DNA from: Methanomassiliicoccaceae archaeon
GTDB lineage: Archaea > Thermoplasmatota > Thermoplasmata > Methanomassiliicoccales > Methanomethylophilaceae
Assembly (NCBI GenBank): GCA_034928305.1
Contig: JAYFOZ010000001.1
Location: 1-64,000 of the forward strand
Direction of reading: 5' to 3'
DNA length: 64,000 nucleotides
This document shows, piece by piece, positions 23,689 to 27,462 of the stretch; the stretch's first letter is position 1, and the number at the start of each line of letters is the position of its first letter. Below the pieces are notes generated by a model that was not told where the DNA came from, did no database searches, and saw only the letters and a program-made list of their open reading frames with translations. Position numbers and translations under genes: made by a program.

Positions 23689-23771
23689 GCCCGTGCAGAT
23701 GCCATGGTTTTAGAAATAACCTGTGCCAACCGTTGCAAACCCTAAATACGGGAGAACATCAATGCGGCCCC

Positions 23772-25379
23772 ATGGATATTAAGACCCTTCGCGAGATCGC
23801 CGACGCGGTCCAGACTGCCATTTCGCTCATTCCCGATCCCTGCAGCAGGGGCAACGAGATATGCATGGGCGATGACGGTACGCCAACCTCGGAGATCGAC
23901 AAGGTAGCCGAGAACGCAGTGCTCGGATACATTGAATCTAATCATCTGGCTCTCAACGTCCTCAGCGAGGAGATCGGTTTTGTCGACAACGGCGCCTCCG
24001 AAATTCTGGTCCTAGACCCTATCGACGGAACCAGCAACTCGGTCGCCGAGATACCATTTTACACTATTTCCATGGCTGTCGGAACAGGGTCTCTTTGCGG
24101 TATGCATACGGCCTTCATCCGGAACCTGGCAACAGGGGACGAGTTCTGGGCGTCCAAGGGCGAGGGCGCATACTATAATGGAAGGAGGTTAAGGGTCAGA
24201 AAGCCCGACTTCTCCAATCTGTTCGCGATGATATACATGGGTAATGCCGCCGTGGACGAGGCCTTCGCACTTGCGAAGAACGTCAAGACGTCACGCTCGA
24301 TGGGATGCGCATCCCTGGAAATGACCCTTCTGGCTCTCGGGCATGCGGATGTGTATTACATGAATACCTACCGCTACAACCGCGCCGTCAGGACGGTCGA
24401 CATAGCCGCCAGCGCGCTGATACTGAGGGAGGCGGGAGGCGAGGTATTCGATACGGGCGGCAACAAGCTCGACATGCCCCTGGACAACGCACATCACGCA
24501 AGTTTCGTGGCATGTTCGTGCAAAGAGGTATTCGACCACGTCATGAGGCCGCACATCGGGGAGCATGGCACCACACGTTACGGAATATATGCCAACGAGA
24601 CCGTTCCCAAAGCGGGTGAATACGTGCAGAGGGCGTACAACGCACTGAAGGGAGAGAAGGTAACCTTGGACACATCGGCCGCCAAACTCATCGGGATGGA
24701 AGGTATTCCGCTCACTGAAATGGATGCGGACATCGTGATAGTCGTCGGCGGTGACGGAACCATACTCAGGGCGCTGAAGAAAACCGAAGCGGCCGTGATA
24801 GGAATCAACGCAGGAGGCGTGGGATTCCTTGCGGAGGTCGAGCCATCCGAGATAGAGGAAAGCATCTCGCGTATCAGGCGCGGAGAATATACCGTTGAGA
24901 AGAGGTCCAAGCTCAGAACGTGGTATAACGGAGAATATCTCGCAGAGGCAGTGAACGAGGCGGTGGTCCACACGGATTCCGTGGCCAAGATCAGGCAGTA
25001 CAAGATATATGTCAACGACCACCTGGCCACGGAGGTGCGCGCCGACGGGGTCATAGTGTCGACGCCGACGGGCTCCACGTGCTACGCCATGAGCCTGGGA
25101 GCACCGATAACCGATCCCGGGGTCGGAGCGTTCCTAATAGTGCCGATGGCGGCGTTCAAGTTCGCATCGCGTCCGTTCGTCGTCCCCGATACATCCAAAA
25201 TAACGATAGAGGAGGTCATGGACAAGGGTTGTCTCATCGTCGTGGACGGCCAGCACGAGTATCCGATGAGGGGAGGCACCCGTGTTGAATTCTCGCTTTC
25301 GGACAACCTCGCCAAATTCATAAAGCTGGACAAGGACTTCTATTCCCGTGTCAGAGAGAAGCTGGTGAATGCCATATGA
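23772..25379 (+). CDS. Bifunctional inositol-phosphatase-family phosphatase/NAD kinase
   Basis: 535 residues from ATG 23772; a TATA-like CCTAAATACG lies 22-31 nt upstream and there is no ribosome binding site, so probably leaderless. The N-terminal half is an IMPase/FBPase domain (LSEEIG, LDPIDGTSNSVAEIPFYT, VDIAASALILREAGGEV). The C-terminal half is an NAD kinase (VVGGDGTILRALK, INAGGVGFLAE, VSTPTGSTCYAMS). The fusion resembles the NADP phosphatase/NAD kinase of Methanocaldococcus (MJ0917 type), which can both make and remove NADP. The stop overlaps the JAMM gene (ATGA). Confidence 0.93.
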   Translation: MDIKTLREIADAVQTAISLIPDPCSRGNEICMGDDGTPTSEIDKVAENAVLGYIESNHLALNVLSEEIGFVDNGASEILVLDPIDGTSNSVAEIPFYTISMAVGTGSLCGMHTAFIRNLATGDEFWASKGEGAYYNGRRLRVRKPDFSNLFAMIYMGNAAVDEAFALAKNVKTSRSMGCASLEMTLLALGHADVYYMNTYRYNRAVRTVDIAASALILREAGGEVFDTGGNKLDMPLDNAHHASFVACSCKEVFDHVMRPHIGEHGTTRYGIYANETVPKAGEYVQRAYNALKGEKVTLDTSAAKLIGMEGIPLTEMDADIVIVVGGDGTILRALKKTEAAVIGINAGGVGFLAEVEPSEIEESISRIRRGEYTVEKRSKLRTWYNGEYLAEAVNEAVVHTDSVAKIRQYKIYVNDHLATEVRADGVIVSTPTGSTCYAMSLGAPITDPGVGAFLIVPMAAFKFASRPFVVPDTSKITIEEVMDKGCLIVVDGQHEYPMRGGTRVEFSLSDNLAKFIKLDKDFYSRVREKLVNAI

Positions 25380-25756
25380 AGAAGATCCGGGGAATTTACA
25401 TAGAGCTCGTCGATGCATTCAACGATGCGGCGAGCTCGACGTACCCGGAAGAATTCCTCAGCATGATGAGGGAGGACGACGGGATAATCTCAGAACTGAT
25501 ACTGATACCCGGCACCGTTTATGGCGATTCGCACAGCTTTCTGAACGATTGGATGGCTCCCGTGGATTTCAGCCTCGTAGGTACGGTGCATTCCCATCCC
25601 GGCTATTCGAACGAACCTTCCGACGACGATCTCCAGTATTTCGCAAATTACGGAGGTGTGCACATAATCACGTGCATGCCGTTCGACCGCAACAGCTGGA
25701 AAGCATACAATTCCAGAGGCGAGCAGCTGGACCTTGAGCTGTTCACTGACTCCTGA
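25376..25756 (+). CDS. JAMM/MPN-domain metalloprotease-like protein
   Basis: 126 residues. The JAMM zinc signature is visible: GTVHSHPGYSNEPSDDDL has the HxHP histidines and the downstream Ser-x-x-Asp; an upstream glutamate in ELILIPG would complete it. Archaeal JAMM proteases cleave SAMP (ubiquitin-like) conjugates or act in sulfur transfer. It overlaps the phosphatase/NAD kinase gene by 4 nt, implying co-translation, and its 3' end overlaps the convergent mutase-like gene by 14 nt. Confidence 0.85.
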   Translation: MKKIRGIYIELVDAFNDAASSTYPEEFLSMMREDDGIISELILIPGTVYGDSHSFLNDWMAPVDFSLVGTVHSHPGYSNEPSDDDLQYFANYGGVHIITCMPFDRNSWKAYNSRGEQLDLELFTDS

Positions 25757-27071
25757 GGCTGTTGTTTACTATCTCTTTGGCCATTTCCAGCAGCCCTACG
25801 GCGTAAGCTTTGTCGCTGGCTTCGACCTTGATGTCCATTATCCCTTCCTGGTCGGGATAGTTGAGGAGGAACCATCCTTCCTTCATGTCTACGCGCCATC
25901 CCTTCGTATGCAGGTAGTTCTTGTAATCCAGGTCGTCGATGGCATCGTTTATCTTTCTGCCGAGGGCTTCGTAGCTTCCGGTGCAGTGTATCCTGGCGGA
26001 GTCTGTCACATAATTAGGCATCTCGTCCAAGATGCCGCTGAGGCTGCGGGTTCCCGCGAACTGGGCGATTTTTGCCGCCGCGAATATTCCGTCGGGGCAC
26101 TTTGTCATTCCAGGAAGGATTATCGAGCCGTTGGCCAGAGCTCCGAAGTCGGCCTTCTCTGCCCTCATTGCATCGCTTAGGGAGATAGGGGTCGGTTCGC
26201 ATTTTACAACTCTGCGCCTGTCATTTTCTTCCTCTTCCCCCCAGAACGCGTTGTCGACGTTCGATGAAATATCTACCGGAACGACCATTTTATCCGGCCT
26301 CATGAATTTGACCAAAAGTGCCAGAAGTTTGCTGCCCGTAACATACCTTGCTTCCTCATCGATCAGCGCTACACGGGTTCCGTCGCCGTTCAAGATAATG
26401 CCGATGCTTCCCGGTATGGATTTCACGGTAGCCTGCGCGTCCTTGGCCTCCGAAGCCTCGATACCAGGGAACCTCGGGGCATAGTTGCGGTCCGGGTGGG
26501 AGTTGATGCTTGTCACATCCGCTCCCGCAGCAGCCAATGCCTGCGGGGCTACCGTAGACGCGCTGCCGCATCCGCAATCTATGACCACGGGGCAGTCGAT
26601 CTCCCCGCAAACATCGACCAGTTTCTTGATATAGTCGCTGGCGACCGTGTCGCATCTCCTTATTGTATTTATGGAGTGATATTCCGGCAGAGGGGTCGAA
26701 CTTCCGATGTATTTCTCCAACTGCCTTATCTGCTGATCGTTGAATCTGGACCCGTCAGGATTACGCAGAGTGATGCCGCTGATCATCCCATAGTTGTTCG
26801 GCTCTCCGATCATTGCACAGCAGCCCGAATCGCGGCCGGCGAGCACCCCTGCCGGCGACGGTACATATCCGGCGTTGAAAACACCCGAACCAACAGAAAG
26901 AACTCCTGAAACAAAAGCATCCCGTATCATTCTGCTGCTGCGGCTGAGGTCCATTCCTACCGTTACCTTGCTGTATGTTGTTCCTACGGCCCTTCCGGCA
27001 TGCAGGGCTTTCTCCGGGGTCATGGCCGTGTCGACGGTCGACATGAGCTCCAATTTAGTGGCAGGCATCAT
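25743..27071 (-). CDS. Degenerate phosphohexomutase-family protein
   Basis: 442 residues with the overall layout of phosphoglucosamine/phosphomannomutases: TPEKALHAGRAVGTTYS at the start, then NPDGSRFNDQQIRQLE, and a C-terminal domain. The key loops are changed. The phosphoserine loop (normally TASHNP) reads MIGEPNNYG and has no serine. The metal loop (DGDxDR) reads NGDGTR. The sugar loop GExSGH reads GALANGS. It is probably not a mutase; a regulatory or new role is possible. Convergent with the JAMM gene. ATG 27071 is used; other ATGs follow closely. Confidence 0.8.
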   Translation of the reverse strand: MMPATKLELMSTVDTAMTPEKALHAGRAVGTTYSKVTVGMDLSRSSRMIRDAFVSGVLSVGSGVFNAGYVPSPAGVLAGRDSGCCAMIGEPNNYGMISGITLRNPDGSRFNDQQIRQLEKYIGSSTPLPEYHSINTIRRCDTVASDYIKKLVDVCGEIDCPVVIDCGCGSASTVAPQALAAAGADVTSINSHPDRNYAPRFPGIEASEAKDAQATVKSIPGSIGIILNGDGTRVALIDEEARYVTGSKLLALLVKFMRPDKMVVPVDISSNVDNAFWGEEEENDRRRVVKCEPTPISLSDAMRAEKADFGALANGSIILPGMTKCPDGIFAAAKIAQFAGTRSLSGILDEMPNYVTDSARIHCTGSYEALGRKINDAIDDLDYKNYLHTKGWRVDMKEGWFLLNYPDQEGIMDIKVEASDKAYAVGLLEMAKEIVNNSLRSQ

Positions 27072-27243: not shown

Positions 27244-27462
27244 ATGGTTATGGAAAAAATCGATTTTGGGAAGGCACAGACGATCGCCAAGTCCAAGGGT
27301 CTCCAGCCGGGAAGGGTCAAGGGCACCCAAGGCGTTCAATTCACAAAGGGTTCCAACGACCGTCTGACGGTTATTTCATGGGGCGAGTTCGAGCAGGCCC
27401 TTAAAAAGAGGGGTCTGGCAATATATGAGTCCGGTGGCTGGATGAAGATAATGAAGGCCTAA
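27244..27462 (+). CDS. Small basic hypothetical protein
   Basis: 72 residues from ATG 27244, chosen because GGAAGGG (27232-27238) stands 5 nt upstream; ATGs at 27208 and 27250 are alternatives. Contains KAQTIAKSKGLQPGRVKGT and ends SGGWMKIMK. It is rich in Lys and Gly and could be a nucleic-acid-binding or SpoVT/HTH-like small protein, but I recognise no family. Followed by a good terminator. Confidence 0.7.
   Translation: MVMEKIDFGKAQTIAKSKGLQPGRVKGTQGVQFTKGSNDRLTVISWGEFEQALKKRGLAIYESGGWMKIMKA

Follow-up and report, generated by a model that had tools for sequence, protein, structure and literature searches.

The window, that is the whole stretch of 64,000 nucleotides analyzed here, carries on its minus strand (25743..27071) a GlmM-derived pseudo-phosphohexomutase gene of 442 aa, delineated by its open reading frame, domain profiles, alignment and an AlphaFold model. 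The frame opens with ATG at 27071, its stop ends at 25743 and its 442 codons are unbroken; with the TIGR03990 Arch_GlmM profile covering residues 13–435, this bears out the claim of an earlier sequence-only reading that the frame is intact and full length. The profile match (E 1.7e-62, 211.7 bits) falls below the cut-off of 439 bits, which is exceeded by the intact ortholog L055 (475 bits). Pfam profiles detected domains I and II, while domain III was marginal and domain IV gave no match. The nearest solved structures are 9du5 and 1wqa. Structure prediction, asked for in the same reading, gave a single confident four-domain fold (pLDDT 91.2, pTM 0.89), and Foldseek with the predicted model returned 9du5 as top match (E 1.2e-37, TM 0.84) with archaeal phosphohexomutases ranking first, so that the four-domain phosphohexomutase fold is present in the predicted structure. 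The host is an archaeon of the order Methanomassiliicoccales, family Methanomethylophilaceae; proteins 88–92% identical to the window mutase occur in Methanomassiliicoccaceae UBA72/UBA370 and Methanomethylophilaceae WOFA05. Judged by synteny and phylogeny, the gene is orthologous to archaeal GlmM, the phosphoglucosamine mutase.

Convergent to the mutase, and sharing 14 nt with it where the 3′ ends overlap, lies a JAMM/JAB-like metalloprotease gene (25376..25756, plus strand; Pfam PF14464, E 2.2e-9) that is kept in lineages with dead and intact mutases alike. It is preceded by a gene identified from domain profiles as a fused NADP phosphatase (IMPase)/NAD kinase (23733..25379, plus strand). The fusion is found only in the clade with the dead mutase: all 17 of the dead-clade loci looked at carry it, even where the mutase was afterwards lost, and the two parts are encoded separately at all 9 loci of intact lineages. 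Upstream and divergent stands a conserved 72-aa protein, c5 (27244..27462, plus strand), which is present in all 74 high-quality Methanomassiliicoccales genomes, mostly at 60–80% identity, and whose ORF gave no match in a Pfam search. Nearly all loci examined share this order, namely divergent c5, the mutase, GlmU where present, and then the convergent JAMM and NADP phosphatase/NAD kinase genes. The sequence-only reading had pointed to the JAMM and NADP phosphatase/NAD kinase neighbors, and both are indeed there; as evidence for function they are weak, since they were present before the inactivation and run convergent to the mutase. A functional link to either is not supported, on the same grounds and because both remain after mutase deletion, and neither is an obligate pairing with c5, as c5 persists in genomes without the mutase.

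The window protein was aligned with 1wqa and with orthologs drawn from across the order. It can be seen from this alignment that the three loops named in the sequence-only reading (MIGEPNNYG, NGDGTR and GALANGS) are all replaced. In the former phosphoserine loop (residues 86–98, AMIGEPNNYGMIS; 26778..26816, minus strand) TASHNPPEYNG has become GEPNNYGMISG, the catalytic Ser is changed to Pro91 and no TASHNP-type motif is left. The former metal loop, NGDGTR (residues 228–233; 26373..26390, minus strand), has lost the first and third Asp of DGDADR, leaving one of three and no DGDxDR motif, and the former sugar loop, GALANGS (residues 310–316; 26124..26144, minus strand), stands in place of GGEENGG/GGEPSGT with neither GGExSG nor GGEENG preserved. 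The earlier list was incomplete, as the former phosphate-binding loop region (residues 402–414; 25830..25868, minus strand) has also lost its SGTEPKxR motif (SGTEPIIR in 1wqa), reading PDQEGIMD with no SGTEPxxR, and the N-terminal FGSSGIRG motif is absent as well.

The dead form was sought within the order Methanomassiliicoccales, in a set of 147 genomes, most of them probably MAGs. A mutase match was obtained in 142 of the 147, and the matches split into two main paralogous groups. One is the canonical mutase (GGEENGG), represented in the window's own genome at G000:C2:132492-133751; the other is the window gene's syntenic ortholog. This ortholog retains every catalytic loop in five other families and in the early-branching genera g4, g11 and g14 of Methanomethylophilaceae. 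The earlier reading proposed to look for homologues with the same loops; orthologs with lost catalytic loops exist in 11 genera (g1, g2, g3, g5–g10, g12 and g13), in all of which the catalytic Ser is gone, and the gene without catalytic loops is kept in 78 genomes. Recurrence of the same loss in orthologs of 11 genera excludes sequencing error or chance as its cause. TASHN occurs in none of the dead-clade orthologs of the alignment, and the catalytic-Ser column of the dead-clade profile alignment holds mostly Pro, Tyr or a gap. Restoration of the catalytic Ser at another position, named in the sequence-only reading as a refutation, was considered and rejected, since the profile alignment gives no universal substitute; this includes Ser98, seven residues past the catalytic position, which is invariant in g1 and g10 and frequent in several further genera. 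Genus g8 is intermediate: its Ser is gone, with the sugar loop mostly still readable as GGEPSGTF and the phosphate loop partly so. Genus g10 deviates in loop 2, where mostly none of the three Asp is left, and no single new motif is common to every genus. Tyr423 hardly varies across the dead clade and also occurs in the intact genus g4, and it is variable in most intact orthologs. With the loop columns excluded, tree building brought the sampled dead orthologs together in a single, deeply diverged clade (SH-aLRT 98) that arises from within the family's intact ones, although this was a quick search with no bootstrap and some long branches. By this tree, catalysis was lost once, as a single change of state, and the NADP phosphatase/NAD kinase fusion serves as an independent marker at the locus.

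An intact mutase gene has directly after it, and mostly overlapping it, a gene for GlmU (TIGR03992, 531 bits). All 32 genomes whose mutase is intact carry both GlmU and GlmS, and none of the 78 with a dead one carries either; for WecB the counts are 23 of 32 against 0 of 78. The threshold for GlmU (E ≤ 1e-57) was chosen after the results were seen, but the gap is wide, as the best hits in dead lineages, at about 1e-46, are shorter NTP transferases of about 345 aa; a few of the counted GlmS genes are split across fragments in poor assemblies (e.g. G126). PF00953 (GPT-type UDP-GlcNAc transferase) was found in none of the 147 Methanomassiliicoccales genomes, intact lineages included, and is of no use as a marker. 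In one g9 MAG of 69% completeness, assigned to neither mutase state, a full-length GlmS sits on a 5.5-kb contig (G064:C123, locus L200) while its relatives carry none; it is possibly contamination, or a transfer. On the genomic distribution, GlmS and GlmU vanished on the same branch as mutase catalysis, and the NADP phosphatase/NAD kinase fusion maps to the branch on which GlmU and mutase catalysis were lost. The assignment of the ancestor as GlmM leans on the GlmU operon and the co-loss. Most Methanomethylophilaceae are probably without UDP-GlcNAc synthesis by the known archaeal route. Methanomethylophilus alvi displays neither a cell wall nor an S-layer (PMC10673518).

A catalytically intact paralog persists in most genomes, and one could therefore suppose that the dead protein joins the canonical phosphohexomutase that is left in mixed oligomers, as its regulatory subunit. 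Active and inactive paralogs do pair in other enzyme families. However, the two genes part company in both directions: G027, an 84% complete MAG, has the dead protein with the canonical mutase undetected (the latter is missing from the other g5 genomes too), whereas G121, G048, G049 and G053 have the canonical mutase without the dead one, and we hold the subunit role to be unlikely. A separate point about genus g5 (G027–G030) is that the undetected canonical phosphohexomutase suggests a further reduction of sugar-phosphate metabolism there. Bacterial GlmM also acts as a regulator of the c-di-AMP cyclase CdaA; a corresponding role was rejected, as the DAC domain occurs in 0 of 147 genomes of the order against 11 of 14 control genomes.

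Pairwise counting within the window's genus gave a dN/dS of 0.056–0.12 for the mutase, against 0.061 for the neighboring NAD kinase. With the codon model, the dead mutase scored 0.054 in g1 (the window's genus), 0.10 in g9, 0.08 in g10 and 0.09 in g7, which is 2–4 times the 0.02–0.035 of intact orthologs; purifying selection thus continues on the dead gene, relaxed yet strong. The conservation is unevenly spread. Loops 2 and 3 (metal and sugar) are more conserved than the whole protein in g9 and g7, where the former phosphoserine and phosphate loops (1 and 4) show no extra conservation; in g10 the conservation of loop 2 is average and that of loop 1 slightly higher, and in most genera loops 1 and 4 lie at or below average, that is, they are drifting. 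The gene has also been lost repeatedly: a clean gap between c5 and JAMM marks its deletion in G121 (the window's genus), G049, G053 and G028, across at least three genera, the mutase is undetected in G048, and it is frameshifted in G036, of a further genus. Because it has been deleted in some lineages, the dead mutase is dispensable. Selection for another function, as suggested in the sequence-only reading, is supported by the dN/dS values, the 78 genomes and the confident fold, but it does not extend evenly over the former active site, where loops 1 and 4 drift in most genera and loops 2 and 3 alone are extra-conserved, clearly so in two of the genera.

The deletions, the frameshifts, the raised dN/dS and the drift of loops 1 and 4 are also what would be seen in a relict in slow decay, functionless since the loss of its pathway and on its way out. 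Yet a dN/dS of only 0.05–0.10 in four genera, the survival of a loop-less gene across 11 genera (78 genomes) whose members have diverged deeply, and the full predicted fold speak against decay, which we regard as improbable. Most doubtful is a new enzyme with a remodeled cleft and another reaction, in which Glu90, Ser98 or Asp230 replaces the phosphoserine and metal site: the extra conservation of loops 2 and 3 in g9 and g7 and the spread of Ser98 would fit, but the clade shares no candidate catalytic set, loops 1 and 4 are conserved no more than average in most genera, and in g10 loop 2 is mostly devoid of the three Asp.

The dead mutase does combine lost catalytic residues with purifying selection, as estimated from the codon data, which is the general mark of a pseudoenzyme. 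We consider it fairly probable that the protein is a pseudoenzyme whose role is neither catalytic nor essential, kept after the UDP-GlcNAc route was deleted. In this reading, the genes of the ancestral GlmM and of GlmU overlapped as a pair. A single branch within Methanomethylophilaceae then saw GlmS and GlmU deleted, and the UDP-GlcNAc route with them; on the same branch all four loops of the mutase (phosphoserine, metal, sugar and phosphate) disappeared, the protein itself being retained. The retained protein may serve in a non-catalytic way, binding a partner or a small ligand or acting as a scaffold, with partner binding or ligand sensing as its most likely role. The constrained part would be mainly the domain 2/3 region (the NGDGTR and DGTF motifs) and the E-x-x-D-x-x-Y motif of domain 4. 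Such a role would be useful and not essential, the latter judged from the deletion of the gene in some lineages.

With archaeal GlmM (TIGR03990; 1wqa, 9du5) the window protein shares the four-domain fold, the length, and syntenic and phylogenetic descent, and it differs from it in lacking the four active-site loops and the N-terminal motif, in its score of 212 bits against the cut-off of 439, and in the disappearance of its GlmU partner. Inactive phosphohexomutases are already known, and the dead archaeal GlmM is a variant of such proteins. PGM5 (aciculin; herring PGM5) is an inactive vertebrate phosphoglucomutase in which the active-site architecture is kept and substrate is still bound (PMC7761743). 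The likeness lies in a phosphohexomutase-fold protein retained without mutase activity, a loss that is here deduced from sequence. Unlike PGM5, the dead archaeal mutase belongs to a separate lineage and has lost both its catalytic and its substrate-binding loops, so that, as far as the alignment indicates, with substrate and phosphate loops gone, no substrate site of the PGM5 type is retained. The gut methanogen Methanimicrococcus blatticola has lost glmS, glmU, wecB and wecC and carries one glmM instead of two (PMC9723798); glmS and glmU are lost in both cases, but there a single glmM is left, whereas the present lineage retains the second one in its dead form. No description of a phosphohexomutase pseudoenzyme in archaea was found in the literature searched.

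Overall, the family offers a natural experiment, in which a pathway was lost on one branch and a motif-less enzyme was kept under selection and spread over eleven genera. With the g8 intermediate and living active sister lineages at hand, it becomes directly testable why a metabolic enzyme should be retained once it is dead. An annotation of the dead gene as phosphoglucosamine mutase would be wrong in dead-clade genomes. We give about even chances to the proposal that this is a new pseudoenzyme family, in which gut methanogens, when their UDP-GlcNAc pathway was deleted, recruited a phosphohexomutase fold for non-catalytic work as a sensor or scaffold. Recruitment at that point would imply that, besides its catalysis, the ancestral GlmM probably performed a further role of a non-catalytic kind, which survived when the chemistry was lost.
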